Positions 40,713-57,598 of a stretch of DNA of 64,000 nucleotides are shown here, in pieces (position 1 is the stretch's first letter; each line of letters opens with the position of its first letter). Origin of the DNA: Maribacter sp. 1_MG-2023. Its GTDB lineage: Bacteria; Bacteroidota; Bacteroidia; Flavobacteriales; Flavobacteriaceae. The notes beneath the pieces were generated by a model, which saw only the letters and a list, made by a program, of their open reading frames with translations, was not told the DNA's origin and did not search any database. Both the position numbers and the translations under genes were made by a program. The DNA lies in assembly GCF_030547005.1 (NCBI RefSeq), contig NZ_JAUOPN010000013.1:62001-126000 (forward strand), read 5' to 3'.

Positions 40713-42428
40713 TTACTTTATGACCTTCACTACACTACCACAGGTCAACATTTTATCACCGAAATATGGATTTTTAATAGCCTTATCTAAACTTAGCCAG
40801 TCACCACCAGTATTGTTATCTGCCATAGGGCAATGTTGAATATAAATTGGATTGCCGTAATCAGTTATTTGAGAAGATACAAAAATAATAGCCTTTGATA
40901 AATTCTTAAATTCTAAACGATTCTTCTCCAAATCCTTACTCTTTTCAATCATAACAAGAGATGTGATGGCAGATTTAATATTACCTTGAAGATTATTATC
41001 CATTCCTGTTTGATCTACTGAGACCAATACCTTATTCAGCTTCTCGGCGAATAATATTGACTTATCAGAATTCGATGCAACTAATTCATCCTTAAAATCA
41101 AAATAAACCTTTAAAACTTCCTTCAACTTCTGATTTTGATTTGAAGTCAATTTATTTAGATGTTCTTGCTGCTTTTTATTTTGCTTCAATTCATTATCAT
41201 TAGAATACATCATAGAATTCTTTCCTTGCAACTGAGCTGCAGCATCAATAACAAAAGTACCATTGGTGACAATTTCATCACCGGTTTGCAAACCTTCTAA
41301 TACTATGTAATTATCACCAACAGATTCTCCCAACTGAACTCTTAAAAGTTCAAATTCAGGTTTAACAGCATTTACTTTTTTGTAGACCACAGACCGTTCG
41401 CCTGTCCAAAGAACAGCACTCTTTGGCACCATCAATAAATTATCATCCGCACTATCAACATTTACCTTACCCTCAATAAACATACCTGGTTTCCATTTAC
41501 CTTCCTTATTTGAAATATCAGCTCTAACAGAGACTACTCTGCTGCCCCTATCTAGTATAGGTTCTATGAAAGATATAGTTGCTTTAAGCGGAGTTCCTTT
41601 GAATGCTTCTGAGCTAATTTCAATTTGCTGCCCTTTTTTCAATAGTGGCATTTGATTTTCGTATGCTTGAAATACCGCCCAAACCGTTGATAAACGAGAC
41701 ACCTTAAACAAAGGATCACCTTGTTTAAAATAATTACCTTCAGAAGCTATAATTTCTACCACTGTACCAGCAACATCAGCAACTAAAGGAAAATTCTGAA
41801 TAGGTTTACCTGTCTTTAACAAATCATCTATCTGTTGATCAGTTAACTTCCAAAGTCCCAAAGTATTTCTCGCAGCAGCATACAATTTTTCGTGAGTATC
41901 TTTATACGAAGCAGATGTCAGTAATTTATCTTGAGCCAAATACAAATCGGGACTATAAATTGTTCCTATAACTTGACCTTTTCTAACATACTCACCAATA
42001 TAATTTACTTCTAATTTATCTAATCGACCATCGAATAATGTAGTCTGAGTAGCATTTGTTTTATCGTTAGAAGTAATCTCACCAGACAAGGTTACTTGTC
42101 CATTTTGTGTATTAAAACCAATAGTGCTTGTTTGAACATTTGCCAAAGCAACTGCACGCTCACTCATCTCAAAACGATTATCAGAGTCCGTACTAACTTC
42201 AACACTCATTTTAACAAGGTCCATTCCACAAATTGGACATGTTCCTTTTTCCTCACTAACAACATCTGGATGCATAGAACAGGTGTATGTGACTTTATCA
42301 ACATGTGACTCAACATCAATAGATTTATCATTTTTTGACTCCCCAAAGAATAAATACCCTAACAGTAAGCCAAAAAGCAATACTGCTAAATAGACCGCGT
42401 ATTTTGAATACTTTGCTAAGTTTCCCAT
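40713..42428 (-). CDS. cusB: Heavy-metal efflux RND periplasmic adaptor, CusB-like
   Basis: The 571-residue membrane fusion protein links an inner membrane RND pump to an outer membrane channel. It is anchored by an N-terminal helix (about residues 9-27). A heavy-metal binding domain follows with the 'YTCSMHPDVVSEEKGTCPIC' signature (residues 48-67) and GMDL. The barrel-sandwich and beta-barrel region spans about 90-400. A C-terminal DUF3347-like segment (about residues 430-571) contains 'HCPMADNNTGGDWLSL' and ends in a Cys-containing tail. The pattern suggests Cu(I)/Ag(I). It overlaps cusA by 1 bp. Confidence 0.9.
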   Translation of the reverse strand: MGNLAKYSKYAVYLAVLLFGLLLGYLFFGESKNDKSIDVESHVDKVTYTCSMHPDVVSEEKGTCPICGMDLVKMSVEVSTDSDNRFEMSERAVALANVQTSTIGFNTQNGQVTLSGEITSNDKTNATQTTLFDGRLDKLEVNYIGEYVRKGQVIGTIYSPDLYLAQDKLLTSASYKDTHEKLYAAARNTLGLWKLTDQQIDDLLKTGKPIQNFPLVADVAGTVVEIIASEGNYFKQGDPLFKVSRLSTVWAVFQAYENQMPLLKKGQQIEISSEAFKGTPLKATISFIEPILDRGSRVVSVRADISNKEGKWKPGMFIEGKVNVDSADDNLLMVPKSAVLWTGERSVVYKKVNAVKPEFELLRVQLGESVGDNYIVLEGLQTGDEIVTNGTFVIDAAAQLQGKNSMMYSNDNELKQNKKQQEHLNKLTSNQNQKLKEVLKVYFDFKDELVASNSDKSILFAEKLNKVLVSVDQTGMDNNLQGNIKSAITSLVMIEKSKDLEKNRLEFKNLSKAIIFVSSQITDYGNPIYIQHCPMADNNTGGDWLSLDKAIKNPYFGDKMLTCGSVVKVIK

Positions 42429-45400
42429 TAGCTATTTTTTTTAAAAATTAATTCTTGCCAAAGACTATATAAAACAGGTACAATCAATAGCGTCACTAGA
42501 GCTATCAACATTCCACCAAAAGCAGGTATAGCCATAGGTATAAGTATATCTTTGCCATGCCCTTTTGCTGTTAATACCGGCAAGAGCGCCAATAAAGTAG
42601 TCGCCGTAGTCATTAAACATGGTCGTATTCTCTTTTTACCCGCATTCAATACCGCTATTCTTATTTCTTTCACTGAATTGGGCTTTTTATCTTCAAAACT
42701 TTGTTTTAAATACGTAGCAATAACTACACCATCATCTGTTGCAATACCAAACAATGCAATAAAACCGACCCAGACGGCGACACTGATATTTATGGTTCTA
42801 ACATTAAATACACTTCTTAAATCATTTCCTAAAAAAGAAAGGTTTAAAAACCAGTCTTGCCCATAAAGCCATAACATCATAAAACCACCTGCAAAGGCAA
42901 CTGCTACACCTGAAAATATCATTAAAGAAACTGCTAAAGACCTGAAATGCAGATACAGTATAAATAATATCGCTATTAGTACCAACGGAATAATTAAAGA
43001 TAAGGTTTTCTCAGCATGAACATTATTCTCATAGGTACCAGCAAATCTATAACGAACACCATCAGGAACAATCAAATCTCCTTCTGTTATTTTGTTTTCA
43101 ATAATTTCTTTCACCTTTTCTACAGCCGTAACTTCTGCAACCCCGTCTGCTTTATCAAACAAAACATAACCTGTTAAAAAACCATCCTCACTTTTAATCA
43201 TTTGAGGTCCTTTTTCGAATTTAATATTCGCAAATTCTGAAAAAGGCACAGAACTGCCATCTGGTAATGAGACAATTATATTTTTTAAGTCTTTAGGATC
43301 AGACCTTAATTCTCTAGGATATCGAATAGTTACATCGAACCGCTCCCTTCCTTCAATGGTCTGGGTCAATACTTTGCCCCCTATTGCAGACTCCAACATT
43401 TCTTGCAATTCATTTATAGTCACTCCATATCTCGCTGCCCTATCTCTATCAAATACAACATTGATGTAAGGTTTTGCCACAATTCTATCGGAAAAAACCG
43501 AGGCATAATCTATTTCTATTATTTGTTTTAATTCCCTCTCCAACTCATAACCAAACTTTTCAATTGATTCTAAATCGGGACCAAAAATTTTAATACCCAT
43601 TGATGAACGCATACCGGTTTGAAGCATTACTAACCTAGTCTCAATTGGCTGTAATTTAGGAGCAGAGGTAACACCAGGTATACTTGTGACTTTTACAATT
43701 TCATTCCAAATATCATCTGCACTATTTATATGTGAACGCCAATTTCTATAATATTCACCGTTGCTATCAACAATTAAATTATTTTGAGAAATACCCGATC
43801 CGGTAGCAACGAATTCTCCACCCTTAGTCTCAAACTTTCCGTCTTCTGAAACCTTAAACGAAAGAGGCTTTCCACTTTCGTTTAACATAAATTCAGTTTT
43901 ATAAATTATTACGTTTTCAAACATTGACAATGGAGCTGGATCAAGTGCCGAACTAACACGACCTGCTTTACCAACAACTGTTTCGATTTCAGGAATAGAT
44001 GCAACTGCCATATCTAATTGTTGCAATATTTTTTTATTTTCAGAAATACCAGAATGAGCTGTAGACGTAGGCATTAACAAAAATGACCCTTCATTTAATT
44101 TCGGCATAAACTCTTTACCAATAGATGCGTATACCAATGAACCCAATAGCAATAAAAATACAGGCAAGCTTAAAAAATAAGCTTTATGAGACATTGCCCA
44201 AAGCAATATCCTTTCATAAAATTCATGAAAAACATAAAGTACTCCCAAAATAGAGAAGACCGCCAATAGCACAAACAAAAAGTCTGAAAAATAATTATTA
44301 TCGTACCCTAACGGATTCCAATAATAGGTTAGAATAAGCAGTATTGATGATACTAGATATAAAACTCTTATTCGTTTAAAATACTTTTTATCGACTACCC
44401 CATATTCTTTTAATAAGTTCAAAATCATTAAACCTAATAGCACCAGACCTATCCAAAAACCAGACAATATTAATAGTAAACCGAGTAAACCTATTAGATA
44501 AGAACCAATATTTTTTACTTTAAATTTCTTGAAGTCAATACTATACCATTTTGCAATTATTGGAGGTATAACAAATAAAGACAACAACATGGCGGCAAGC
44601 AATGCAGCTGTTTTGGTAAAAGCAAGAGGTGTAAACAATCTACCTTCTTCACCACTTAAAGCAAAAACAGGAACAAAACTTAAAATTGTTGTTAAACCAG
44701 CTGTAACTATTGCACCAGACACCTCATTAACACCTTCAATTACCACATCGTCAATTGACTTATCACTTTTATCTTGCTCAAGTTTTCTAACAATATTTTC
44801 TGACAAAATAATACCTAAATCGACCATTGTACCTATTGCGATGGCTATACCTGACAATGCTACAATATTAGCTTCGACACCAAATAACTTCATAGCAATA
44901 AAAACCATTAGCACCGCTACAGGTAATAATGCAGATATTATAATTGATATTTTTAAGTTACGTAGCATTATTAGGACAACTAATATTGCTATTAATATCT
45001 CTAAATACAGTGCCGAACTTAAAGTACCCAAAGTACTTTTTATGAGTTCGGTTCTATCATAAAACGGAACAATGGTCAATTTAGAAATAGAACCATCATT
45101 TAATTTTTTAGAAGGCATACCCTTCCCCAACTCTTTTATCTTGAGCTTGACTGATTCTATTACTTTTTGAGGATTTGAACCATATCTACTTACCACCACA
45201 CCACCTACGACCTCAGCTCCTTCTTTATCTAAAATACCCCTACGTTCTTTTGGACCTAAGGTTACATTGGCAATATCTTTTACTCTAATTGGAACAAAAT
45301 CATTTGAAACCACCACGGAACTTTCGATATCATCGATTTTTCTAACCAGACCCAAGCCCCGTATTAAGTACTCTGCATTATTAATCTCAATGGTCTTTGC

Positions 45401-46108
45401 ACCAACATTCTTATTCGTTTCTCTAACTGCCTTAACAACATCTTTTAATGCAATTTGATATTGGCGCATAAGTTGAGGATTGACCTCAATTTGATACTCT
45501 TGAATATGACCACCTATTGAGGCTACCTCTGCAACATCTCGTGCAGAAGAAAGTGCATTTTTAATATAAAAATCTTGTACTTTTCTTAACTCATGCAGAT
45601 CCCACCCACCAGTAACCTTTCCATTTTCATCTCTACCTTCAAGCGTATACCAAAATAACTGACCTAAAGCTGTAGCATCAGGACCCAGTTTTGGAGAAAC
45701 GCCTTTAGGCAATAAATCTGATGGTAGACTACTAAGTTTTTCTAAGATTCGGCTACGGCTCCAATAAAACTCTACATCATCTTCAAAAATCAAATAAATA
45801 GTCGAAAAACCAAACATAGAAGAGCTACGCACAGATTTTACACCCGGAAGCCCTAATAGATTAGAAGTAAGAGGATAGGTAACCTGATCTTCAATATCTT
45901 GAGGTGATTGTCCCTCCCATTCTGTATAAACTATTTGTTGATTATCGCCAAGATTAGGAATAGCATCTACCGAAACCGGATTTGACCCGACCAATACATT
46001 GTCTACAGTAATTGGAACACTCATTAAACCCCATGTCAAAAGAACTAATAACATTACAAATGCAATTAGTTTATTCTTCACAAGATATTTAATTAATCCG
46101 TTTAGCAT
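42428..46108 (-). CDS. cusA: Heavy-metal efflux RND permease, CusA/CzcA family
   Basis: This inner membrane proton-driven metal exporter is 1226 residues. The family sequence is clear: 'VSVDAIPNLGDNQQIVYTEW' near the N-terminus (residues 43-62), 'GTMVDLGIILSENIV' (TM4 acidic residue), 'FMPKLNEGSFLLMPTS' near residue 670, 'DPAPLSMFENV' and 'GIATDDGVVIATYL' in the second half. The methionines in these last segments match those that bind Cu(I) in E. coli CusA. It is about 180 residues longer than E. coli CusA; the excess is around residues 540-640, with extra hydrophobic helices between the two RND halves. No outer membrane factor gene is adjacent. Confidence 0.92.
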   Translation of the reverse strand: MLNGLIKYLVKNKLIAFVMLLVLLTWGLMSVPITVDNVLVGSNPVSVDAIPNLGDNQQIVYTEWEGQSPQDIEDQVTYPLTSNLLGLPGVKSVRSSSMFGFSTIYLIFEDDVEFYWSRSRILEKLSSLPSDLLPKGVSPKLGPDATALGQLFWYTLEGRDENGKVTGGWDLHELRKVQDFYIKNALSSARDVAEVASIGGHIQEYQIEVNPQLMRQYQIALKDVVKAVRETNKNVGAKTIEINNAEYLIRGLGLVRKIDDIESSVVVSNDFVPIRVKDIANVTLGPKERRGILDKEGAEVVGGVVVSRYGSNPQKVIESVKLKIKELGKGMPSKKLNDGSISKLTIVPFYDRTELIKSTLGTLSSALYLEILIAILVVLIMLRNLKISIIISALLPVAVLMVFIAMKLFGVEANIVALSGIAIAIGTMVDLGIILSENIVRKLEQDKSDKSIDDVVIEGVNEVSGAIVTAGLTTILSFVPVFALSGEEGRLFTPLAFTKTAALLAAMLLSLFVIPPIIAKWYSIDFKKFKVKNIGSYLIGLLGLLLILSGFWIGLVLLGLMILNLLKEYGVVDKKYFKRIRVLYLVSSILLILTYYWNPLGYDNNYFSDFLFVLLAVFSILGVLYVFHEFYERILLWAMSHKAYFLSLPVFLLLLGSLVYASIGKEFMPKLNEGSFLLMPTSTAHSGISENKKILQQLDMAVASIPEIETVVGKAGRVSSALDPAPLSMFENVIIYKTEFMLNESGKPLSFKVSEDGKFETKGGEFVATGSGISQNNLIVDSNGEYYRNWRSHINSADDIWNEIVKVTSIPGVTSAPKLQPIETRLVMLQTGMRSSMGIKIFGPDLESIEKFGYELERELKQIIEIDYASVFSDRIVAKPYINVVFDRDRAARYGVTINELQEMLESAIGGKVLTQTIEGRERFDVTIRYPRELRSDPKDLKNIIVSLPDGSSVPFSEFANIKFEKGPQMIKSEDGFLTGYVLFDKADGVAEVTAVEKVKEIIENKITEGDLIVPDGVRYRFAGTYENNVHAEKTLSLIIPLVLIAILFILYLHFRSLAVSLMIFSGVAVAFAGGFMMLWLYGQDWFLNLSFLGNDLRSVFNVRTINISVAVWVGFIALFGIATDDGVVIATYLKQSFEDKKPNSVKEIRIAVLNAGKKRIRPCLMTTATTLLALLPVLTAKGHGKDILIPMAIPAFGGMLIALVTLLIVPVLYSLWQELIFKKNS

Positions 46109-46262
46109 AAAACTTATAAACCTACTTGTTTATTATAAACTACAAGCCTCTGACAATAAACGTAGGAAACAAGTATAGATTGTAGAAAGAGGGCAAGTAT
46201 TTATCTAGAATCTAAACAAAAAATGACCTTCTATAAATTTAAATATACTAGATAAAAATTTG

Positions 46263-46337
46263 TGGGATATACTGGATTCGAACCGGTGACCTCTGCCCTG
46301 TCAAGGCAGCGCTCTAAACCAACTGAGCTAATATCCC
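46263..46337 (-). tRNA. tRNA-Val (anticodon GAC)
   Basis: The minus strand folds as GGGATAT acceptor / ATATCCC, D-stem GCTC/GAGC, anticodon stem CTGCC/GGCAG with loop TTGACAG (anticodon GAC), 5-nt variable loop and T-loop TTCGAAT. Discriminator base A; CCA is not encoded. The T-stem ACCGG/CCAGT has one C-A mismatch (bases 46285 and 46273), unlike the tRNA-Val at 58.5 kb. It lies 78 bp downstream of the Nramp-like gene on the same strand. Confidence 0.93.
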
Positions 46338-46415: not shown

Positions 46416-47687
46416 CTAGAAATAATCCAACAATGCTACAACGCCATTATAAGAAATTACGCAAGAAAAGAAAAGTGCTGCAAAGAGTCCTAAATTAAGC
46501 CAAACTCCCGCCTTATACTTGGTCATTAAATTCTTGTTATTTATAAGAAGTATTATTCCTAATATCACCAATGGCAAAACAAACACATTAAACACTTGAG
46601 ATAGTATTTGCATTTGAATAGGATTAGCTCCATATACAGGAACTATCAGCGCAAATAATGAGGCTATTGCTGTAATTATTCTAAATTGTTTTGAACTAGT
46701 ATCTAACTCCCCTGATTGATAATCTGCCAATAATATTGGAGCAATTAGTAGACATGGAAAAATTGATGATAAGCCAGCACTTAATGTTCCAAAAAAGAAA
46801 AGTGTAAGGGCAAATTTACCAGCAACGGGTTCTAATGTATTCACCATATCCAATACTTGGGTTACCGGTTTCCCTTGATGAAATAAAGCTCCACAAGCTA
46901 CAGCCATTACAGATGCACTAATAAAAAACACAAGCGAAGCTGCAATTATTGCATCTTTCTTTTGTTGCGATCGATTTTTTATCGTCCAACCTTTTCCCTT
47001 TACAAAAAGTGGTCTCGAAAGAAACGTAGCTGCAGCCATGGTCGTGCCTACAAAAGCAGCAACCATCATCTGACCCCCTTCAACTTTTGGTATTGTCGGT
47101 ATCAAACCTTTTACAACTTCAACAGGTAATGGGTACACCATAAATAAGGAAATTATGAATGAAAGCCCCATGATAGTTACAAAAATGACCAATATTTTTT
47201 CAAAAAAGGCATACTTACCAACCATTAACAATCCATAAAATATAACAATAACAGTTATTGCTATTATTAAAACAGACTCATATTTGAAATCTACCAAATT
47301 TGGGAAATAAATTAAAAATATCTCATAAATGACATTCGCGGAAATACCAAGAATACCCATTAATGAATTCCACTGACCAAAAGAAATTCCAAGAATTATA
47401 AGAATAGCAATTAACTTACCCCACTTTAAATGTTTTTTAAAAGCATAAAGTGCAGTTTCACCCGTGACTAAAGCGAAATTACCGTAAGCATACATTAACA
47501 AACCTGAAAAAATACAACTTAAAAGTAGCACCCATAAAAGTTGCATACCATATGTACTACCTGCCACAATCATTGACGTTACACTACCAGTACCAATAGT
47601 ATACCCAATAGCGAATATTCCAGGACCAAATGCCAAAACTAAAGCCAATATTTTTTTCCAAATTGATAGTTTGGCTGAATTATTCAT
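46416..47687 (-). CDS. Nramp-fold membrane transporter lacking the canonical metal-binding motifs
   Basis: The 423-residue inner membrane protein has 11 or so helices and clear overall Nramp/MntH similarity: 'FGPGIFAIGY' at residues 20-29 and 'YGMQLLWVLLLSCI' in helix 2. The helix-1 DPGN motif that binds the metal is replaced by IGTGS (residues 31-35), and the helix-6 MPHN motif by 'VGTTMAAATFLSR' (about residue 212). The Asp, Asn and Met ligands of Mn2+/Fe2+ transporters are therefore missing. The gene is 76 bp downstream of the GntR gene in an alginate locus, where an MFS sugar-acid transporter is usual. It may carry a different substrate such as an unsaturated uronate; this is inference. 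Confidence 0.82.
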   Translation of the reverse strand: MNNSAKLSIWKKILALVLAFGPGIFAIGYTIGTGSVTSMIVAGSTYGMQLLWVLLLSCIFSGLLMYAYGNFALVTGETALYAFKKHLKWGKLIAILIILGISFGQWNSLMGILGISANVIYEIFLIYFPNLVDFKYESVLIIAITVIVIFYGLLMVGKYAFFEKILVIFVTIMGLSFIISLFMVYPLPVEVVKGLIPTIPKVEGGQMMVAAFVGTTMAAATFLSRPLFVKGKGWTIKNRSQQKKDAIIAASLVFFISASVMAVACGALFHQGKPVTQVLDMVNTLEPVAGKFALTLFFFGTLSAGLSSIFPCLLIAPILLADYQSGELDTSSKQFRIITAIASLFALIVPVYGANPIQMQILSQVFNVFVLPLVILGIILLINNKNLMTKYKAGVWLNLGLFAALFFSCVISYNGVVALLDYF

Positions 47688-47763: not shown

Positions 47764-48465
47764 CTAAATGTTATAGCAAAATTGATATAAGTTCTTAAAA
47801 TGAACTTTCATTTTTGCTTTCGCCAATTGCGGATTCTGTTCCTCTATAGCGTCAAAAATATCTTGATGCTCTTCTATCCCTCTAAATGCCATATTTTTAT
47901 CACAAACATGGTACTTCTCAAAATTTGTAAGTATTTCTGGTGTAATAATAAGCATGAAAGTGTTCATAGTACTGTTTCCGCTAGCTTTTGCTATAGCCAA
48001 ATGAAATAGCAAATCTTCCTGTACTGCATCTTCACCATTCTCGACCTTTTTACGATAAGCATCCAAAGCACTTTTCAATTGCTTTAAATCTGTATCTGTT
48101 CTTCTTCTAGCCGCAAGCCTTACGGTTTTTAGTTCAAGAAGAATTCTAGTTTCTACCAATGATTTAAAATCAGGTTCTTCTAGGCGCAGAATATCGTTCA
48201 CCATACCGTTCATAGCAATCTGACCTATATCTGCTACAAAAGTTCCACTTTGAGGCTTTGAAATTAAAATTCCATAAAATTCTAATTTCTGAATTGCTTC
48301 TCTAACATTGCTTCGACTAACTCCGAATTTATCTGAAAGCATTCTTTCAGACGGCAATTTATCACCAGGTTCAAGATTTTTATTATTCATTAAATCTCTA
48401 AGCTGAACTATAATCTCATTTTGTATTTCCTGATTTTCAGTCCTTGTGAGGATTTCTAATTTCAT
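47764..48465 (-). CDS. GntR family regulator, FadR subfamily (FCD domain)
   Basis: The 233-residue regulator has an N-terminal winged helix-turn-helix: 'LEPGDKLPSERMLSDKFGVS' then 'SRSNVREAIQKLEFYGIL' (about residues 36-75). The helical FCD ligand-binding domain spans about residues 95-225 with histidine-bearing helices ('LLFHLAIAKASGNSTM', 'EEHQDIFDAI', 'KVHFKNLYQF') that form the usual metal/ligand pocket. FCD regulators typically sense sugar acids, uronates or acyl-CoA. It lies between the PL7 genes and the Nramp-like gene. An operator-like box at 48486-48501 upstream of its own start, related to two boxes before susC, suggests autoregulation and repression of the alginate operon. Confidence 0.9.
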   Translation of the reverse strand: MKLEILTRTENQEIQNEIIVQLRDLMNNKNLEPGDKLPSERMLSDKFGVSRSNVREAIQKLEFYGILISKPQSGTFVADIGQIAMNGMVNDILRLEEPDFKSLVETRILLELKTVRLAARRRTDTDLKQLKSALDAYRKKVENGEDAVQEDLLFHLAIAKASGNSTMNTFMLIITPEILTNFEKYHVCDKNMAFRGIEEHQDIFDAIEEQNPQLAKAKMKVHFKNLYQFCYNI

Positions 48466-48685: not shown

Positions 48686-49666
48686 TCACTCATGAGTGAC
48701 TTCTAACTCGTAATATTTTACTCTGGCTGATGCGCCAGCATCTAGGGTTTGCAAATAATTACCCGCTTTAAAATAATTTTCAAAAACGCTCCACTTTTGC
48801 ATATGTATATCTTCATAGACAACGGAATCGGTTTCGTTTAAAATCACCTCCAACCTACCGTCTGAAGAAATAATCTCTAGAGTAAATGTATTAGCACCTA
48901 TATTCTCTGAGAAAGTATGTCCTTCATTATCTTCCCAAGCATCTGTATGCAAAATCTCTTCGTCTGTAGCATTAAGGTCCTTAAGCTTTTTAGTAAGCAC
49001 TCTTACTTTGCCTTTCTGCCAATAAATTTTCAACATTGGAGGAGCATTATTATCATCTTCCCCTATTAAATCTCTTTGATCATTTGTTAATCTACCGTGA
49101 ATTTGCATGACCAAAGTTCTATGAAAATCACCACCAGCATCTGTAGTAATTTCTGGCACGGATAAAGTGCCCTTCATTCGACCACCTTCTGTAAAAGTCC
49201 AATTAGTACTATTACTACCAGGCACCATTTGTTCTCTTAATTCTGTTCTTGAGTAAGATGAATTAGCTGTTGAAGAACCTGGTGTTGTGTAAAATACCAA
49301 AGAACCATCAGTAGAATCATTATACATATAAGGTATCAACCTTTCATCTGTTGCATAATCTATAATCTCTGGCGGCTCCACTTCATCAGGACTACCAATT
49401 GGCAATGTTACTTTCCAATTGCTCAAATCAATACTCGGCAAAAAAAAGTCCACTCCTTCTACCTGTTCTTCTTCAATAACCACTTCCTCTTCTGGTTCAG
49501 GAGTTGCCTCTACCTCTTCTTCAACCACTTCTTCTTCCTGAACAATTTCCTCTTCTGCCGTTTCTGCATCGTTACTACAACCTACAACGGCAAATGCCAT
49601 TGCAAAAGCAAAAAAATAATTTGCTATCGTTGGTTTACAAAAACGTAAAATATAATTTGTAATCAT
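48686..49666 (-). CDS. PL7 family alginate lyase, lipoprotein
   Basis: The 326-residue surface or periplasmic lyase cleaves alginate by beta-elimination. A lipobox Cys30 ('AFAVVGCSND') is followed by a very acidic linker (about residues 33-75, EEEE-rich) and a complete PL7/alginate-lyase-2 beta-jelly-roll. The three catalytic blocks are 'SRTELREQM' (about residue 140), 'QIHGRL' (about 187, QIH form often linked to guluronate-containing substrates) and 'YFKAGNYLQTLDAG' (about 300). The start could be an internal ATG nearer the lipobox. It is the last gene of the alginate operon, 10 bp after its paralogue. It has no T9SS C-terminal domain. Confidence 0.93.
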   Translation of the reverse strand: MITNYILRFCKPTIANYFFAFAMAFAVVGCSNDAETAEEEIVQEEEVVEEEVEATPEPEEEVVIEEEQVEGVDFFLPSIDLSNWKVTLPIGSPDEVEPPEIIDYATDERLIPYMYNDSTDGSLVFYTTPGSSTANSSYSRTELREQMVPGSNSTNWTFTEGGRMKGTLSVPEITTDAGGDFHRTLVMQIHGRLTNDQRDLIGEDDNNAPPMLKIYWQKGKVRVLTKKLKDLNATDEEILHTDAWEDNEGHTFSENIGANTFTLEIISSDGRLEVILNETDSVVYEDIHMQKWSVFENYFKAGNYLQTLDAGASARVKYYELEVTHE

Positions 49667-49676
49667 ATAATTCTTA

Positions 49677-50588
49677 TTAATGCTTTACTTCAAGTTCATA
49701 AAAACTGACCTTGGCAAATGAACCTTTATCTCTGCTTTGAAAATAATTACCAGCTTTAAAGTAATTTTCAAATACACCCCATCTTTTCATATTGAAATCA
49801 TCGTAAACGGCGAATTCTGTTTTATTTAATGAGACTACCATTTTACCATCTGTAACTTTCACTTCAATTTGAAACTTACCGAAACCTACTTCTTCTTCAA
49901 AATTGAATCCTTCATCATCTGTCCAAGCTTCTTCATGCAATATGCCAAGAGCATTTACATCTGCATATTTTAATTTTTTTGTTTTGACTCTAATTTTACC
50001 ATTCTGCCAATATACCTTTAATACCGGCGGCGCATTATTGTCTTTTTGCTTGATTAAATCTTTTTGATCATTGGTCAACCTACCATGAATTTGTAGAATG
50101 ATTACTTTATGATATTTACCATTCTTATCTCTTGAAACCTCATCAACTGACAGTTTTGCCTTTAAAGTGCCCCCTTGCTTAAATGTCCAATTTACATTGT
50201 CATTTCCTGGAGCCATTTGTTCTCTTAATTCTGACCTAGAATATTTAGTGTTGGCAGTTGTTGCAGTTGTTGGATACGCATAAAAAGTGAGAGCTCCTTT
50301 TGTAGAATCATTGTACATGTAAGGTTTCAGCACCTCATTTGTAGCATAATTCAAAATCTCTGGCGGTGCTACACTTATTGCCCCTCCTTTACCACTACCT
50401 TCTGGTATTGTAACCTTCCAGTTACTTAAATCAATTTCCGGTAGCTTAACTTTCTTCTTTCTTTTCTTGGATTTTTTAAGTTTTACATCCGATTCTGAAA
50501 CGCTACTTTTCTGATTTTGAGAAGTAGCGTTTACAGATAGAAATAGTAATACTAAAAATACCAATATTCCTTTTCGGGTGTTTTGCAT
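49677..50588 (-). CDS. PL7 family alginate lyase, secreted
   Basis: The 303-residue lyase begins with a signal peptide (MQNTRKGILVFLVLLFLSVN, cleavage likely after ATSQ) and a strongly basic segment (KLKKSKKRKKKVKLPE). The PL7 domain carries 'SRSELREQM' (about residue 122), 'LQIHGRLTNDQ' (about 168) and 'YFKAGNYFQSRDKG' (about 280). It is a tandem paralogue of the lipoprotein PL7 next to it; the two share 'DLSNWKVT' and 'LRPYMYNDS'-type blocks, but this one is soluble with a basic instead of an acidic linker. It lies 10 bp from each neighbour, firmly inside the operon. Confidence 0.93.
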   Translation of the reverse strand: MQNTRKGILVFLVLLFLSVNATSQNQKSSVSESDVKLKKSKKRKKKVKLPEIDLSNWKVTIPEGSGKGGAISVAPPEILNYATNEVLKPYMYNDSTKGALTFYAYPTTATTANTKYSRSELREQMAPGNDNVNWTFKQGGTLKAKLSVDEVSRDKNGKYHKVIILQIHGRLTNDQKDLIKQKDNNAPPVLKVYWQNGKIRVKTKKLKYADVNALGILHEEAWTDDEGFNFEEEVGFGKFQIEVKVTDGKMVVSLNKTEFAVYDDFNMKRWGVFENYFKAGNYFQSRDKGSFAKVSFYELEVKH

Positions 50589-50598
50589 GAATTACAAA

Positions 50599-52041
50599 TT
50601 ATGGATTCACTGAACGAACCTTCACATTATCTATGTATGCATCTTTTGGTGTTACCGCATAGAACATTATAGCAACTTCTCCACTGTCATTTGCAGTAAA
50701 AGGAATCTGCACTAAGGTACCTGCACCATCTGTGGTATCTGAGAACTTACCTTCTGCTACATAGCCTTCGTTAAATCCTAAATTATCCCCTATGTTGTCA
50801 ACAGCATCTGCACCATCATCATACTGACCATCTAGAATTAGTCCTACTATTTTTCTACCACCAATTGGATCGGTACCACTATCGTCCTTTATTGCATATT
50901 GATATTCTAAAATATAATCTGCACCAGGAACCAAATTAAGCTCTTGATATGCATATCTAGAACTAGAAGTTCTTAAATCACCACCAGATTGACTTGATGA
51001 CCATTTTGCCCCTCTTGTTTTACTACCCGTATCAACTCCATCATAATCTTGGTTAGAACCATCTGAACTAGAACCAAAAGGATTAGTTTCCCCATCCGTA
51101 AATGTTGTCCATTTCCAAAAATCTTGACCATCTTCAAAATCACCGTTCAAAATAGAAGAACCTGTCATTCTTGACATATAAATATTGTCTACCGTAATTG
51201 TTGCATGATCATTTGCTGTACCCGTACTTCCTAATTCAAAAAGGATTGTTTCAAATTGCGATACAGGAGATGAAAAATCTGTAGCCAAGTCTAAATCAAA
51301 ACCTGACCACTCACCATCTGTTAAATCTAAATCATCAATTACATGACTAGTACCATTTGTACTATCTACCAAAGTTATTTTTAATTTGTCTATACCTGTA
51401 GCAAACTCAGAATATACATCAAAATGAATATCATTTGATCCAACACCGCTATAGAATGCGTCTGCTGCAACCACCTCATCACTTAAAGCAAATTCACCTA
51501 CATCACTATGTAGTCTAGAAAATTCCAATAGATTGTTTCCTGAATCCAAAATTACAGCCTTACCACCTGTACCCGCTGTACCAACAGAACTAGCGTCTGT
51601 AAAAATGTTTAAAAGATTATATCTTTTAACTTCTGGTGACGCAGGAGCACTGTCAATAGATTGCACAGTATGCTCTACCGTAATATCTTCAGTTTTAACC
51701 AGATCAGTTTGCCCTGAAGCTTTAGTCGTAACGGTTATGGTATAGTCTGCAGATGCTTCAACATTAGAATAATCATATGTAGCGGATTCTCCTTGCAATG
51801 CTGTTAACGGTGTACTACCATCACCAAAATCAATTACGTACGAATCTACACCAACAGTTAACGGTGTTACCGTAACAATGGTACCATCTCCACTAGCTGA
51901 TACATCAAAACTTGAAAATACGCTTCCAATAGAACCACCAGAAGAATCAACTGGCTCAATTGGCTCATAACCATCTTCATCACATGACATGATAAGACCA
52001 GTTATCAAAAGGGCACTTATTCCTTTTTTAATTAAACTCAT
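50599..52041 (-). CDS. PKD-containing surface glycan-binding lipoprotein
   Basis: The 480-residue lipoprotein (lipobox Cys20 in 'GLIMSCDED') has a PKD-like Ig domain at about residues 42-125 ('YVIDFGDGSTPLTALQGESA'). A central beta-sandwich lies at about 140-300 and a C-terminal carbohydrate-binding-like sandwich at about 300-480 ('ILNGDFEDGQDFWKW', 'AYQELNLVPGADYILEYQYA', 'AYIDNVKVRSV'). It has no catalytic motif. Position after susCD and before the PL7 genes fits a surface glycan-binding protein presenting alginate to the enzymes and SusCD. A long stem-loop precedes it in the operon. Confidence 0.83.
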   Translation of the reverse strand: MSLIKKGISALLITGLIMSCDEDGYEPIEPVDSSGGSIGSVFSSFDVSASGDGTIVTVTPLTVGVDSYVIDFGDGSTPLTALQGESATYDYSNVEASADYTITVTTKASGQTDLVKTEDITVEHTVQSIDSAPASPEVKRYNLLNIFTDASSVGTAGTGGKAVILDSGNNLLEFSRLHSDVGEFALSDEVVAADAFYSGVGSNDIHFDVYSEFATGIDKLKITLVDSTNGTSHVIDDLDLTDGEWSGFDLDLATDFSSPVSQFETILFELGSTGTANDHATITVDNIYMSRMTGSSILNGDFEDGQDFWKWTTFTDGETNPFGSSSDGSNQDYDGVDTGSKTRGAKWSSSQSGGDLRTSSSRYAYQELNLVPGADYILEYQYAIKDDSGTDPIGGRKIVGLILDGQYDDGADAVDNIGDNLGFNEGYVAEGKFSDTTDGAGTLVQIPFTANDSGEVAIMFYAVTPKDAYIDNVKVRSVNP

Positions 52042-52191: not shown

Positions 52192-53013
52192 CTAATTCAG
52201 TCTATCAATACTAATTTTAGAGAATCTACATTCTGTTCCTGCATATTCAATATTAAATCTCATGTTCTCTGTATCATCACCTGTTGTAAAAGAGAATGAT
52301 GTTTGAACGTATGATGAAGCTTGATCAGTTAACGGAATTTCTTGTAAAAGAAAATCATCTCCTGTATCTGCATCTTCTATTAATAATGTACCTGCAGAAG
52401 TACCGGTAGTTTTACTTACATACCAGAACGTTATCTCATAAGTTGCACCAGAAACCACACGGATGCTTTGATCAAGAAAGTTAGAACTGCTACTTAGTTT
52501 AGCCGCACCATTATCTTCTGGTGGTGTTGGCGAAGAACTTGCAGAGTAAGAACTAGTAGTTCCCCTATCTACACCGGCCCAAGGTGTTCTTGGATCACAC
52601 AAGAAATCTGGACACTGAAAAGCCGCTACCAACTCATCTACAACCACAACATCTAATGTAACAGTTGATGTAACACCATTACCATCACTTGAAACCAAAG
52701 TAACAGGAAATGTACCTTCACCAGAAAACTGAAATGTAGGATCACGATCTGTAGAAGTTTCACCGCCACCAAAATCCCATAAATAGGAAGACGCTTCAGT
52801 TGAAAGATCAGTAAAATTTATTATAGTAAAATCTGTTTGATCCGCCGTATAATCAAAATTAGCTTCTGGAAATATCGTATCTGCCTTTGAATTAGAATCT
52901 GGCAAATCATCTCTAAAAGTATCTGAACCAACACAACCAACAAAAGAACTTGTAATTACTATACTAAAGAGTAACAGAGTTGTTTTTCGGAAAATATTTT
53001 GTTTAATTTTCAT
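52192..53013 (-). CDS. PKD-domain lipoprotein of the alginate locus
   Basis: The 273-residue lipoprotein has lipobox Cys27 ('ITSSFVGCVG'). A PKD domain follows at about residues 48-125: 'INFTDLSTEASSYLWDFGGG' and 'DRDPTFQFSGEGTFPVTLV' are the typical WDFG and Y/F-TV strands. Residues about 135-273 form a second beta-rich domain ('SIRVVSGATYEITFWYVSK', 'YVQTSFSFTTGDDTENMRFN') resembling a CBM-like sandwich. There is no catalytic motif. It is encoded 19 bp after susD and is probably a surface glycan-binding protein working with SusD. A PKD protein also follows susD in the Zobellia galactanivorans alginate operon. Confidence 0.83.
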   Translation of the reverse strand: MKIKQNIFRKTTLLLFSIVITSSFVGCVGSDTFRDDLPDSNSKADTIFPEANFDYTADQTDFTIINFTDLSTEASSYLWDFGGGETSTDRDPTFQFSGEGTFPVTLVSSDGNGVTSTVTLDVVVVDELVAAFQCPDFLCDPRTPWAGVDRGTTSSYSASSSPTPPEDNGAAKLSSSSNFLDQSIRVVSGATYEITFWYVSKTTGTSAGTLLIEDADTGDDFLLQEIPLTDQASSYVQTSFSFTTGDDTENMRFNIEYAGTECRFSKISIDRLN

Positions 53014-53032: not shown

Positions 53033-54475
53033 TTAATATCCCGGGTTTTGCGTCAAAAGTCCGCCGCTTATATTTATTTCTCTTGCCGGAATTGGCAATA
53101 ATAATTTTCTAGCATCAAATACATATCCCATTTCAGCAGAATGAGCACTTAGTACAGCTTCAGCAACGCCAAACCTTAGTAAATCGAACCAACGTTGATT
53201 CTCAAATGCTAATTCCACTCTTCTTTCCACTAAAAGATCTTCTTTAGTAATGGTTGAAACAGTTGCCGGTAAACCAGCTCTATCTCTAACCGCTTGAAAA
53301 GAAGCTAATGCTGCGGCATTTGTTGTTGATGCAGAACCTGCCATTATAGCCTCTACATGCATTAAAAGAACATCAGCATAACGTAAAGCGATATAATCAT
53401 TACCTGCATCACGGGCACTAGGACCATAAGAAGGTGGTGTAGTCGTAATATCAGAACCTTCCGGTAGAAATTTAATTACTTCATTTGATGTACCAAAAGT
53501 AATGTATGATTCAGCTGTTCTATCACCACCATATGCAGCAAAATCCAATACTAAATTTTCATTCACAATATTTTGGCCATCCTCTGATCCTGCACGAGTT
53601 GAAGAAGTAAATTCAGATGAAAAACTCTGACTTTCTGCACTGTTACCAGTTTCGTACTGAATAGCAAAAATGATTTCATTATTCAATTCACTATAAAAAA
53701 CATCGTGAAAATCACTCTCTAAACTAAATGCACCACTATTAACTATTGACTCACATAATTGCTGTGCAGCCGCATAATTAGGAGATGCCAATGACAAATA
53801 TGCTTTAGCCAAAATACCTTGTGCCGCAGCTTTAGATGCTCTTGATTTAGACGAATTATCTAAAACACTCGCAGCTTCTTGTAAGTCTGCTATGATCTGC
53901 TCATAAACTTGAGCTTCTGGAATTCTAGTAAACAACGCTTCATTATCAGTAGGACCTACTACAGTCGTAACCAATGGCACATCACCAAACATCCTTACTA
54001 ACTTAAAGTAAGCATACGCTCTCAAAAATTTTGCTTCTGCAGCATATTTAGCCTGATTGCTTTCATCTGCTACATCAATAAAATCCAAGATGTTGTTGGC
54101 TCTAAAAATTACTTCATACATAGAAGCATAATAATCCTCAGATTCTACATTATTAGCATTTACAACGTATCTGTGAAAATCAGCTTTAGAACCTTCAAGT
54201 GTTGCATTTCTTGTATTATCGGTTCTATGCTCTGTTAAAAGATGCTCAAATTGTACACCTCTATTATAATCACCAATATTTGATTGTGTATTACTATTTA
54301 CCCCTTGCAAGGCATCGTATATACCATATACCCCAGACAGTACATCTGCATCAGATTGAAAAAATCCGTCTACAGCAACTGCCGTATCTGGCAATGGGTT
54401 TAAAAACTCTTCAGTATCACAGGAAACAAATACGGATACCGTTACTGCAACTATTAAATATTTTATATGTTTCAT
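53033..54475 (-). CDS. susD: SusD/RagB family nutrient-binding outer membrane lipoprotein
   Basis: The 480-residue lipoprotein has lipobox Cys19 ('SVFVSCDTEEFLNPLPDT'). The SusD-like N-terminal region ('NILDFIDVADE', 'AEAKFLRAYAYFKLVRMFG' near residue 130 with TPR-like helices) is followed by the RagB/SusD C-terminal region ending 'RRVELAFENQRWFDLLRFGV' and 'LLPIPAREINISGGLLTQNPGY', the usual end. It forms the lid of the SusC transporter and binds oligoalginate here by context. It lies 18 bp after susC. Confidence 0.94.
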   Translation of the reverse strand: MKHIKYLIVAVTVSVFVSCDTEEFLNPLPDTAVAVDGFFQSDADVLSGVYGIYDALQGVNSNTQSNIGDYNRGVQFEHLLTEHRTDNTRNATLEGSKADFHRYVVNANNVESEDYYASMYEVIFRANNILDFIDVADESNQAKYAAEAKFLRAYAYFKLVRMFGDVPLVTTVVGPTDNEALFTRIPEAQVYEQIIADLQEAASVLDNSSKSRASKAAAQGILAKAYLSLASPNYAAAQQLCESIVNSGAFSLESDFHDVFYSELNNEIIFAIQYETGNSAESQSFSSEFTSSTRAGSEDGQNIVNENLVLDFAAYGGDRTAESYITFGTSNEVIKFLPEGSDITTTPPSYGPSARDAGNDYIALRYADVLLMHVEAIMAGSASTTNAAALASFQAVRDRAGLPATVSTITKEDLLVERRVELAFENQRWFDLLRFGVAEAVLSAHSAEMGYVFDARKLLLPIPAREINISGGLLTQNPGY

Positions 54476-54493: not shown

Positions 54494-57400
54494 TTAAAAA
54501 TCAACGTTAAGACCAACTGTAACCGTTCTAAATATTGGTGTACCTGCTCTTTGAGAACCATAAGCTCTTGGATCACTACCATCTATATGCTCTGGATTGA
54601 AACCATGATAATCATCTGCAGTGATATATAGTAAATTCTGTGCAGTTGCATAAACTCTTAAGCCACTTACTCCTATACGTTCTGCTACATCTTTTGAAAA
54701 ATTATAACCAAGATTAACGTTACGTAAAGAGAAATAATCCGCACTTGCAATAACATCACTTGTCAATACTTTTTCTTGAATGAACGAAACATCAGATACT
54801 AGACCATTAGCTACCGCTTCTAACTCACCACCACTTCTTGTTCTATTACCAAACCAGTTGTAGAAATATTGATCTCCAATATTATTAACCTGAGCTCCTA
54901 AGCTACCTTGAACCATAAAAGAAAAATCAACATTTCCGAATTTAAATTCGTTAGTGAAACTGTAAACCAAATCTGGATAAGGACTACCCAAAATAGTTTT
55001 ATCTTCCTCTGTAATTAATCCATCCCCATTTAAATCCTTAACAATCGTATCATCAGACTGACCATTAATTCTATTCCAAGGACTGTCAACATATGTTGTT
55101 CTAAAAGAAGTCTCATCAAAAGCCTCTTCATCAACTACGTAACCCCAGAAAGATGAAATAGGCTCTCCAATTCTGTTGATCCATTGAGAGTTTCTACCGT
55201 AAGAATCTTCTATTAAGGCGTTGTTAGAATCTCCAAAGCTTAATAATTCATTTTTATTTGTAGATGCTATTAAAGTTGAATTCCAAGAGAAATTTTCGTT
55301 AGAAACATTTCTAGTTCTTAACTCAAGTTCAACACCTTTGTTTTGAACTTCACCTAAATTAACAATACCACTATTAAACCCTGATATATAAGAAACCGGG
55401 TTGTTCAATAACAACTCATCACTTGTTCTTTCGTAGTAATCAATAGAACCAGAGATTCTATTATTAAAGAAGCCATAATCCAAACCAACAGTCAATTCCT
55501 TTGAAGCTTCCCATTGTAATAATGTGTTAGCAATATTTAGTGGAGATACACCGGCTGCAATACTGCCATCATCTATAGAATTTGAATTCTGCAATAACGC
55601 TAAGTAAGGCCAAGCATTTACAATAGCATCACCTACATTAAAGTTTTCAGCCCCTGTAAGACCATAACTAGCTCTAAACTTCATGGTATTTACAACATCG
55701 CTATTCAATAAGAAATTTTCTTTAGCAACGTTCCAACCTAAAGATACCGCAGGGAAGTTACCCCATTTAGAATCTATACCAAATACAGAACTACCATCTC
55801 GTCTAAAAGAAGCATTCACTAAATACTTTCCTTTATATGCGTAGTTAACTCTTGCAAAGTATCCTAACTTTTTAAGCTCTGTATTGGTTTCTGTAGGAAG
55901 ATCAACTAAAGTAGCTCCTTGAAAGTTTTTAAGTAAATCATTAGAAAAACCACTACCAGTAGTAATACTCTCTTCAGATTTTCTTTTCTGTATAGTAGCC
56001 CCTAATAACAAGTTTAAATCGTGATCATCACCAAATGTCTTTGTATAGTTCAAAGTATTATCAGAAATAACCCTTGTTCTAAATCTATTAGCTAAATAAT
56101 ATGAAGCTCTTGAATTACCACTTGCGTGATGTTTTGTACCATCATATCTAGTTCTCTTTCTTTGCTCAAGAGTAACACCTAATTGCGTTTTAGCCGTAAG
56201 ACCATCTAATAGCTCATAACTTAAGTATGTAGATCCAAATAATTTAGTATTATATTCAAAATGCTCTCTTTCCACATATTGAGCATATGGGTTAGAATCC
56301 CCAGAAGTACGAGGTCTACTATCACTACCATCACCATTAATATCCAATTCTACTAAATGGTTTTCGTAAAAGTAATCACCAACTCCAACATCTGGATAAA
56401 CATCTCTATTTATAAACTGAAGTGATTCTTCTGTATGATAAATAGGTAACCATGGAGATTGACGTGTAGGATTATGAATAGAAGTTGGCAATCTTCTTTG
56501 TTTTGTATAAGAAGGAGTAGCTCTAATACCAAATCTTGCTCTTTCACCAATTTTTGAATCCACTTTCATATTAGCAGAGAACAATTTATAGTCATCTGTA
56601 ATAACAACACCTTCATCATGAAGATACCTTAAAGATGTACTAAACTTAGTATCTTCCGAACCACCTCTAGCAGATAAAGAATGACTAGTTATAGCACCTC
56701 CGTCAAAGAAAACATCTTGCCAATCTCTATCAACACCTGTAGCCTGCACTAACAATTGCGCATACTGAGTTTCATTTGAAAGAGTACCTGTTGCAGCTTG
56801 TTCTATTTTAGCCCATTCAGATACACTTTTTCTGTAATCATCACTACCATGGGCACTTTTAATACCTGTGTAAGTCTGATAGCTGAATTTAGTTTTACCG
56901 GCCTTACCGCTTTTGGTAGTAATTAAAATTACACCGTTAGAACCTTCACTACCATAAATTGCAGCAGAGGCAGCATCTTTTAATACCTCAAAAGATTCTA
57001 CATCATTCATATCAAGGTTACCAAGAAACTCTGAACTTACTACAACCCCATCAATTACCAATGCAGGACCAGAATCAGCAGTTACCGAACCAATACCTCT
57101 AATAGTAATGGTCGGTGCTCCACCAGCTTCAGCGTTTGTTGCCTGAATGTTCACCCCAGATACCTGACCTATTAAAGCGTCATCAACCCTTGATACCGCA
57201 ATTTGATCCAAAGTTTCATTCGTCACCTTAGAAATAGAACCTGTAATTGTAGATTTCTTCTGGGTACCATACCCTACTACTACTACTTCATCAAGCTGAC
57301 TTGCATCTTCTTTCAAAGTAACACCTACAGTTTTTTGAGCTACAATAGCTATTGTTTCTGTTGTATAACCTATATAAGAGAAACGTAACATATCACCACT

Positions 57401-57598
57401 GGTTACCTGAATGGTGAAATTTCCGTCAAAATCACTTTGAGTACCTCTTGTTGTATTTGCAACAACAATATTTGCGCCAGGTATTGGCACATTGTTTGCA
57501 TCTGTTACCGTACCTGATAGATCATAGGTATCTTGTGCAAATAATTGAATGTTGACCAGCAACATTACAACCATAAAAATTTTTAGTTTAAAATTCAT
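54494..57598 (-). CDS. susC: SusC/RagA family TonB-linked outer membrane transporter
   Basis: The 1034-residue outer membrane transporter imports oligosaccharides with TonB energy. A signal peptide (MNFKLKIFMVVMLLVNIQLF) is followed by the carboxypeptidase-regulatory-like domain (about residues 24-105, 'GTVTDANNVPIPGANIVV') and the SusC plug ('DEVVVVGYGTQKKSTITGS', 'RGIGSVTADSGPALVIDG', about 105-235). The 22-strand barrel ends '...TPIFRTVTVGLNVDF' with the C-terminal phenylalanine. It is the first gene of the alginate operon, with a leader of about 340 nt if the -7 box at 57951 is used. Substrate (alginate oligosaccharides) is inferred from the two PL7 lyases downstream. Confidence 0.95.
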   Translation of the reverse strand: MNFKLKIFMVVMLLVNIQLFAQDTYDLSGTVTDANNVPIPGANIVVANTTRGTQSDFDGNFTIQVTSGDMLRFSYIGYTTETIAIVAQKTVGVTLKEDASQLDEVVVVGYGTQKKSTITGSISKVTNETLDQIAVSRVDDALIGQVSGVNIQATNAEAGGAPTITIRGIGSVTADSGPALVIDGVVVSSEFLGNLDMNDVESFEVLKDAASAAIYGSEGSNGVILITTKSGKAGKTKFSYQTYTGIKSAHGSDDYRKSVSEWAKIEQAATGTLSNETQYAQLLVQATGVDRDWQDVFFDGGAITSHSLSARGGSEDTKFSTSLRYLHDEGVVITDDYKLFSANMKVDSKIGERARFGIRATPSYTKQRRLPTSIHNPTRQSPWLPIYHTEESLQFINRDVYPDVGVGDYFYENHLVELDINGDGSDSRPRTSGDSNPYAQYVEREHFEYNTKLFGSTYLSYELLDGLTAKTQLGVTLEQRKRTRYDGTKHHASGNSRASYYLANRFRTRVISDNTLNYTKTFGDDHDLNLLLGATIQKRKSEESITTGSGFSNDLLKNFQGATLVDLPTETNTELKKLGYFARVNYAYKGKYLVNASFRRDGSSVFGIDSKWGNFPAVSLGWNVAKENFLLNSDVVNTMKFRASYGLTGAENFNVGDAIVNAWPYLALLQNSNSIDDGSIAAGVSPLNIANTLLQWEASKELTVGLDYGFFNNRISGSIDYYERTSDELLLNNPVSYISGFNSGIVNLGEVQNKGVELELRTRNVSNENFSWNSTLIASTNKNELLSFGDSNNALIEDSYGRNSQWINRIGEPISSFWGYVVDEEAFDETSFRTTYVDSPWNRINGQSDDTIVKDLNGDGLITEEDKTILGSPYPDLVYSFTNEFKFGNVDFSFMVQGSLGAQVNNIGDQYFYNWFGNRTRSGGELEAVANGLVSDVSFIQEKVLTSDVIASADYFSLRNVNLGYNFSKDVAERIGVSGLRVYATAQNLLYITADDYHGFNPEHIDGSDPRAYGSQRAGTPIFRTVTVGLNVDF

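Follow-up and report, generated by a model that had tools for sequence, protein, structure and literature searches.

The window analyzed here is a 64,000-nucleotide stretch of the genome of Maribacter sp. 1_MG-2023. It holds an alginate locus, encoded on one strand, with a gene for an Nramp-related transporter at its downstream end. The features, with the basis of each assignment, are as follows (positions are those of the window).

46262–46337, minus strand: tRNA-Val (GAC), downstream of the transporter, taken as the locus boundary (ARAGORN)
46416–47687, minus strand: gene for an Nramp-related transporter of 423 amino acids, a member of the GTGS/R225 clade (ORF, Pfam, tree, AlphaFold2, Foldseek)
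47013–47015, minus strand: codon of R225 in TM6b, invariant in the clade (alignments)
47583–47594, minus strand: codons of G32-T33-G34-S35, the TM1 motif replacing DPGN (alignments)
47764–48465, minus strand: gene for a GntR/FCD-family regulator (Pfam FCD, GntR)
48686–49666, minus strand: gene for a PL7 alginate lyase (Pfam Alginate_lyase2)
49677–50588, minus strand: gene for a PL7 alginate lyase (Pfam Alginate_lyase2)
50599–52041, minus strand: gene for a 480-amino-acid protein (ORF; no Pfam family at 1e-5)
52192–53013, minus strand: gene for a PKD-domain protein (Pfam PKD)
53033–54475, minus strand: SusD-like gene (Pfam SusD_RagB)
54494–57598, minus strand: gene for a SusC-like TonB-dependent receptor (Pfam Plug, CarbopepD_reg_2)

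The genes thus run, on the same strand, from SusC through SusD, the PKD protein, the 480-amino-acid protein, the two PL7 lyases, and the GntR/FCD regulator to the transporter, whose ORF begins with ATG. The regulator gene ends 76 nt upstream of that start, and its product matches both the GntR and the FCD families of Pfam, which agrees with the initial annotation in placing the transporter beside an FCD regulator. For the 480-amino-acid protein, a glycan-binding role is a guess. No sugar-acid kinase or aldolase gene was found within the window locus, and this counts against the sugar-acid reading of the transporter that we develop below. Across the tRNA-Val gene from the alginate locus, positions 40713–46108 encode an RND efflux pump and an HlyD-type adaptor with a heavy-metal-binding domain.

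The product of the transporter gene (hereafter, the window protein) is a full-length member of the Nramp superfamily. Pfam Nramp (PF01566) covers residues 36–393 at 214 bits (cut-off 29.8), and the AlphaFold2 model, computed from 66 sequences at 35%–93% identity, has a helical LeuT-type fold (pLDDT 81, pTM 0.82). Scores against the NCBIfam MntH models fall below their cut-offs (95 against 430 bits for NF001923, and 35.5 against 272.5 bits for TIGR01197). The model NF037982, “Nramp family divalent metal transporter,” is matched at 80.5 bits against a cut-off of 50, a result that counts against the sugar-acid reading. Among solved structures, the top sequence match is EleNRMT (2e-16), followed by 10ky (BfraNramp) and DraNramp. 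Foldseek ranks DraNramp first and EleNRMT second (TM-scores of 0.77 and 0.80 by query length). The query-normalized TM-scores of the top ten are 0.72–0.80, an integrative YcsG model is found at rank 20, and ApcT, a CAT homolog, and BasC are among the weaker matches, along with chloride cotransporters such as NKCC1. It should be noted that TM1 is modeled as a single unbroken helix, with moderate confidence there, which also counts against the sugar-acid reading; because of these two properties, we make no claim about a binding pocket from the model.

The metal site and the GTGS clade

Where DraNramp and BfraNramp have (I/M)DPGN in TM1, residues 31–35 of the window protein read IGTGS, directly followed by AGSTYGMQLLWV. 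TM6 of canonical members contains GA(T/V)VMPHNLFLHS or similar; the window protein shows GTTMAAATFLSR there, so that A218-A219-A220 stands in place of MPH, and the position of the TM3 glutamate is occupied by I112. By these three tests the protein is not a canonical Nramp/MntH transporter. The initial annotation had quoted the alignment through helices 1 and 2 correctly, and its claim that the known metal ligands are missing is borne out. These changes are shared: GTGS replaces DPGN in 31 of 31 clade rows of our alignment, and the TM3 position is I, V, or L in the same 31 rows. All 17 orthologs recovered with the whole protein as query also carry GTGS, and with both sets in agreement the motif cannot be attributed to a sequencing fault. 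T33 and S35 are likewise invariant within the clade.

The signature of Mg2+ transporters in the family has been given as DxxG in TM1 plus TxxA/T in TM6, and the TM1 aspartate has been described as universally conserved in SLC11 proteins and required in EleNRMT (PMC8806188). The window protein has the TM6 half of this signature (T215-T216-M217-A218) and, with GTGS, lacks the TM1 half. Its most distinctive residue is R225, which is arginine in 31 of 31 GTGS-clade rows versus 0 of 22 other Nramps (these show H, Q, Y, T, or N) and is invariant also in groups A1, A2, and A3. R225 aligns with the second of two conserved TM6b histidines, a position at which EleNRMT has asparagine. Seven further residues (Q105, Y136, T221, S303, T339, N355, and Q360) are fixed in group A, the alginate-linked part of the clade, common to its sisters L180 and L185, and rare in the remaining clade; by this pattern they are candidates for sugar-acid recognition. 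Positions 118 and 355 are N/N in group A, and D, E, or Q at the former with K, R, or T at the latter in the 20 other GTGS-clade rows, as if a charge pair had been jointly lost in group A. We considered a Na+ site based on the TM8 serine pair and dropped it, as S308 is also present in 20 of the 22 other Nramps.

The alignment comprised 53 Nramp-family proteins and the tree 52, the truncated protein C_L168 being out of the tree and kept among the 22 “other” alignment rows. The DPGN rows were drawn from plasmid records plus one PDB chain, four of the ten loci L165–L174 contributed a protein, and rows L030 and L032–L035 of the family-sample alignment were excluded from motif reading. The tree unites the GTGS proteins in a single clade (support 100/99). 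Identity of group A proteins to the window protein is 72%–84% in the family sample and 71%–93% in the named genomes, and the rest of the clade consists of other Bacteroidota proteins (35%–59% identity) and an Escherichia coli protein (40%). Separate clades are formed by the GPGT (99/97), GPGS/GPGN (99/99), GAxD-type (100/100), and DPGN (100/100) proteins. Branching between these clades is partly weak, and the tree program flags long branches meeting, so we draw no conclusion about their order. In a search of 296 Bacteroidota genomes with a GTGS profile, 22 matches in 20 genomes scored at least 394 bits, and the other listed matches scored about 200 or less.

The Maribacter genome itself encodes four PF01566 proteins above the cut-off, plus one weak partial match, and DPGN is absent from TM1 in all four. 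A second GTGS Nramp is encoded on contig C10, in an alginate locus with PL6, PL7, PL17-type, and KdgF-like genes (L053, G000:C10:48601-68600). It is 38%–39% identical to the window protein, and its gene lies between KdgF, which precedes it, and PL6, with a phosphomannose-isomerase-like gene nearby. On contig C42 (L054:7138-10638), the best PF01566 protein of the genome, with IGPGT in TM1, is followed by pxpA, pxpB, and pxpC. Contig C34 (L055:9499-10746) encodes a divergent Nramp-family protein with AIGTSHLV in TM1, scoring 39.6 bits to PF01566.

Gene neighborhoods and co-occurrence with alginate lyases

Neighborhoods in named genomes were taken from the best 80 of 546 confirmed relatives, retrieved with search patterns that held GTGS, so the motif may be present in this set by construction. 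These 80 include members of Maribacter, Zobellia (three species, at L069, L072, and L075), Arenibacter, Flagellimonas, Winogradskyella, and Polaribacter. Two records lie beyond the Flavobacteriaceae, one from an uncultured Saprospiraceae and the other from Labilibaculum. A same-strand gene lies upstream in 76 of the 80, at a median gap of 15.5 nt and at 100 nt or less in 71 of the 76 (gaps that may be understated, given that ORFs were counted from the first start codon). The gene directly upstream encodes a KDPG aldolase in 37 loci, a gluconokinase–6-phosphogluconate dehydrogenase (GntK-Gnd) fusion in 22, an SDR in five, and a PFK in four, and at least one of KdgK, PFK, KDPG aldolase, or GntK-Gnd is encoded no more than three genes upstream in 65 of the 80. 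At least one gene for PL6, PL7, PL17, KdgF, KdgK, KDPG aldolase, FCD, or MFS occurs in 76 of the 80 loci, and a lyase gene in 45 (the names KdgF, KdgK, PL17, and SDR rest on one representative per cluster tested against Pfam/NCBIfam and on blastp similarity of the others). Two layouts recur, each with many variants: SusC-SusD-FCD-MFS-SDR-KdgK-(PFK)-KDPG aldolase-Nramp, and PL6/PL7-GntK/Gnd-Nramp-PL7-SDR-PL17-KdgF-SusC-SusD. In four of the 80 (L070, L092, L105, and L134), none of the alginate/uronate genes sought was found, and this must be counted against the sugar-acid reading.

The placement of the GntK-Gnd fusion gene directly upstream of the Nramp gene in alginate operons (e.g., L040:10749-12626; the 22 cases are among loci L066–L145) is an observation in its own right. 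In a separate sample of 149 Flavobacteriaceae genomes, all eight fusions with at least 66% identity adjoin a group A Nramp. Full-length fusions of 60% identity or less occur away from the Nramp gene in other genomes, and thus the fusion is not tied to group A Nramp alone.

In the same 149 genomes, a group A ortholog is present in 18, PL7 in 37, and PL6 in 35. PL6 occurs in 18 of 18 genomes with the ortholog versus 17 of 131 without it (Fisher p 6e-14), and PL7 in 17 of 18 versus 20 of 131 (Fisher p 3e-11), the genomes not being independent in either comparison. A PL6 or PL7 gene lies within 20 kb (start to start) of the group A gene in 15 of the 18 genomes; in one it is at 21 kb, and in two there is none on the contig. 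For comparison, the 38 alginolytic genomes (a set that omits G010 owing to stop codons in its PL6 match, although the PL6/PL7 co-occurrence count keeps it) encode 27 other Nramps, and 0 of these 27 have a PL6/PL7 gene within 20 kb. The tree and co-occurrence check that the initial annotation had suggested therefore came out in its favor, with a single GTGS clade (100/99) tied to uronate and alginate genes (15 of 18 versus 0 of 27 near PL6/PL7).

The best NCBI model for the MFS protein of these loci is the D-galactonate transporter (255 against 395 bits, below cut-off). At E ≤ 1e-80 it is found in 36 of the 149 genomes, all of which belong to the set of 38 alginolytic genomes. The initial annotation had hinted that the Nramp protein stands in place of the MFS carrier; this is not borne out, as 17 of the 18 genomes with a group A Nramp also have the MFS protein (in the Maribacter genome, on contig C10). 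Conversely, group A Nramp is present in 18 of the 38 alginolytic genomes, and 19 of the 36 that have MFS do without it. Alginate import in general can therefore do without the Nramp protein, a point against the sugar-acid reading, and its coexistence with MFS, together with its presence in 18 of 38, marks it as an accessory carrier. This status makes it less likely to be the sole importer of DEH and more likely to serve a second, related substrate. Replacement had been suggested by an apparent exclusion, MFS (42 loci) and GntK-Gnd (22 loci) never occurring together in the best 80 of 546. It was ruled out with eight sampled genomes in which GntK-Gnd (at least 66% identity) adjoins Nramp: in eight of eight, MFS is encoded on the same contig, 11.8–20.6 kb from Nramp and beyond the flanks that had been fetched.

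Relatives outside group A and the link to pxp genes

Neighbors of more diverse members were surveyed with most of the L186 context left out. L180 is flanked by 2-keto-3-deoxy-galactonokinase, KDPG aldolase, and gluconolactonase genes, and L182 adjoins PL6 and PL7. The neighbors of L183, L187, L188, L190, and L191 are GH2-, NagB-, GH20-, and xylose-isomerase-like, several with an SSF symporter (family assignments Pfam-tested on L183 alone). L194 is found with SDR and RraA, and L195 has no telling neighbor. The B-type members of the family sample adjoin NagB-like and amidohydrolase genes (L057–L059) or Gfo/Idh or phosphomannose-isomerase-like genes. Because distant relatives are found with amino-sugar and GH20/GH2 genes and SSF symporters, the clade does not have one common substrate, which also counts against the sugar-acid reading. 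The E. coli member is present in 546 of 5426 complete genomes; in SK1144 (L198:3409-10396), one flank carries genes for a LacI regulator, a CoA-transferase, and an enoyl-CoA hydratase, and the opposite flank a gene for an FAD oxidoreductase.

Contexts were viewed for 15 of 53 plasmid records. In haloarchaeal plasmids (L178 and L201), GPGT-type Nramps directly precede hydantoinase/oxoprolinase subunit genes. Other non-DPGN Nramps on plasmids lie beside a DHDPS-family gene, amidohydrolase and Gfo/Idh genes, or CoA-transferase/thiolase genes; in four of the 15 viewed records, they have no telling neighbor. The gene for an Arthrobacter DPGN protein (plasmid record) has a metal-dependent regulator gene and a cation-diffusion gene as neighbors, and three other DPGN plasmid records show no metal neighbor within the stretch viewed. 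A Vibrio record is unannotated in that region.

In the 149 Flavobacteriaceae genomes, pxpA lies within 4 kb of 90 of 105 non-GTGS Nramp matches and of 0 of 31 GTGS matches (18 A and 13 B, including two fragments). Most flavobacterial “metal” Nramps therefore look like 5-oxoproline carriers, and the GPGT proteins would, by their synteny, be PxpT. We had intended the flavobacterial “canonical” Nramps as a metal control and rejected them, given that they are GPGT rather than DPGN proteins and mostly sit beside pxpA.

What is reported of PxpT and its homologs is not in agreement. In Corynebacterium glutamicum, a delta-pxpT strain (Cg1142) does not grow on 5-oxoproline and is complemented from a plasmid (PMC13274462). 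Its authors leave metal transport possible, which counts against the sugar-acid reading (PMC13274462). For YcsG (MntG), the Bacillus subtilis PxpT homolog, Mn2+ import is reported based on overexpression and a triple-mutant growth defect, and an earlier 5-oxoproline phenotype of ycsG is considered possibly polar (PMC10448178). The two reports conflict (PMC13274462; PMC10448178). As in these systems, the window protein is an Nramp-family protein in a catabolic operon. PxpT is controlled by a regulator of the GntR type, and C. glutamicum depends on PxpT to grow on an organic acid (PMC13274462). Unlike PxpT and YcsG, which are linked to pxpABC, the GTGS clade has no pxpA linkage when gene neighborhoods are compared, and the GPGT rows form a clade of their own.

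Candidate substrates and what they would mean

The missing metal-holding residues, taken with the place of the gene among alginate genes, lead us to conclude that the window protein probably carries an acid sugar. From sequence and context we infer both the substrate class and the direction of transport, and put the probability that it is an inner-membrane sugar-acid carrier at about 0.6. Context and residues make uronate a candidate substrate. The data establish the fold family (LeuT/APC), the motif, membership in an Nramp-related clade devoid of the metal site, the operon linkage, and the coexistence with MFS, and the protein would act as a secondary transporter in the inner membrane. Its cargo is most likely a small sugar acid of alginate/uronate breakdown (DEH, a saturated uronate, 2-keto-3-deoxygluconate, or an aldonate), imported alongside MFS to feed the cytoplasmic kinase and aldolase that are encoded beside most relatives. 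An anionic substrate is the simplest reading of an invariant TM6b arginine combined with the lack of an acidic ligand at the known site.

A possible mode of binding is offered by amino acid carriers of the same fold. TM1 backbone amides hold the substrate carboxylate at Thr43 and Gly44 in GkApcT and at Ser26/Gly27 in AdiC (PMC5803215), and the G32-T33-G34-S35 turn resembles these turns in make-up. By analogy, the backbone amides of the GTGS turn would hold the carboxylate as the T-G/S-G turns do, with R225 in TM6b as its counter-charge; any ion coupling is likewise putative. ApcT, a CAT homolog, and BasC are weaker fold matches to the window protein, and the carboxylate-binding TM1 turn is known from GkApcT and AdiC (PMC5803215). 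None of the carriers GkApcT, AdiC, and BasC appears in sequence searches with the window protein.

Three other readings have to be weighed. The protein might still be a divalent-metal carrier (e.g., for Mg2+, Mn2+, or Ca2+) with a rebuilt site, serving alginate-breakdown enzymes or handling cations freed from the gel. Its nearest structures are DraNramp and EleNRMT, its T-T-M-A stretch fits the TxxA/T half of the Mg2+ signature DxxG-TxxA/T (PMC8806188), YcsG is reported as a Mn2+ importer (PMC10448178), and an Nramp protein of an Alteromonas alginolytic system has been labeled, by annotation, a metal-ion transporter (PMC6431674). However, 31 of 31 clade rows have glycine in place of the TM1 aspartate and I, V, or L in place of the TM3 glutamate, an invariant arginine occupies TM6b, and the neighboring genes vary with the catabolic pathway, so that we consider metal transport unlikely. 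EleNRMT, first by sequence and second by fold, shares the TxxA half in TM6 but keeps the TM1 aspartate and the TM3 glutamate and has N where the GTGS clade has R225. The canonical MntH/Nramp proteins (DraNramp, BfraNramp) share PF01566 and the LeuT fold, whereas the window protein has neither DPGN, MPH, nor the TM3 Glu and belongs to a separate clade.

A narrower form of the sugar-acid reading, with odds that overlap it, is that the protein specifically carries an aldonate or 2-keto-3-deoxygluconate instead of the alginate monomer; we regard this restriction as possible though rather doubtful. It would fit the KDPG aldolase (37 of 80) and gluconokinase-6PGDH fusion (22 of 80) genes upstream in the best 80 of 546, the eight fusions with 66% identity or more in the 149 genomes that all lie beside group A Nramp, and the presence of an MFS protein that scores best, among NCBI models, against the D-galactonate transporter. 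The window locus, however, consists of lyase, SusCD, and FCD genes with no kinase, and fusions of 60% identity or less occur away from group A Nramp. Such a carrier would presumably make the window protein a functional analog of KdgT or GntT. That it exports or exchanges an organic-acid by-product of uronate catabolism, such as an overflow keto acid, seems improbable. Sequence does not fix direction, and a likely importer (MFS) is already present in most such genomes, but the tested member of the wider family, PxpT, is required for growth that depends on uptake (PMC13274462).

The sugar-acid reading can also be set against what has been described. Nramp-related proteins without DPGN/MPH are recognized as a paraphyletic, mostly uncharacterized set (PMC12873925; PMC10606218), of which the NRMT-like and G-motif 3 (MntG) proteins are characterized exceptions (PMC12873925). 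Compared by description, the “Nramp-related” groups of Ray, Berry and Gaudet lack DPGN/MPH as the window protein does, and in the portions of that paper available to us we found no mention of a link to sugar-acid genes (PMC12873925). The alginate uptake carriers listed in a review are MFS, ToaABC, and ABC systems (PMC8286568), and a paper of 2026 describes a further, tripartite carrier from Vibrio (PMC13390454). None of the matches listed in our search of mostly open-access literature proposes an Nramp protein as a uronate or sugar-acid carrier. An organic-acid Nramp (PxpT) and the lack of DPGN are already known, and the GTGS clade is real, conserved, and alginate-linked. Of the initial suggestion of an undescribed organic-acid or uronate branch, the uronate/alginate linkage stands, and it has to be seen beside the recognized Nramps without DPGN/MPH and the organic-acid precedent PxpT.

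More tentatively, and with somewhat less than even odds in our estimation, GxG-type Nramps may all be carboxylate carriers tied to particular pathways (uronates, galactonate, amino-sugar breakdown, 5-oxoproline, hydantoins, and CoA-activated acids), with DPGN/MPH having arisen late within an ancient family of organic-acid carriers that belongs to the APC superfamily. If so, the name “Nramp family divalent metal transporter” would be a misannotation for most of the flavobacterial proteins that bear it.

The passage of alginate monomers across the inner membrane is a little-tested step in a major pathway of marine carbon, and our results point to a second carrier, so far unstudied and common among flavobacteria that feed on alginate. 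With PxpT as the first case, they give a second indication that Nramp-fold proteins can transport organic acids, with GTGS plus the TM6b Arg as a search motif, and they bear on the origin of the Nramp metal site. They are relevant, too, to “divalent metal transporter” labels assigned automatically, one of which is carried by 546 of 5426 complete E. coli genomes: if the window protein is indeed an acid-sugar carrier, many of the “metal transporters” of this family would be misnamed.
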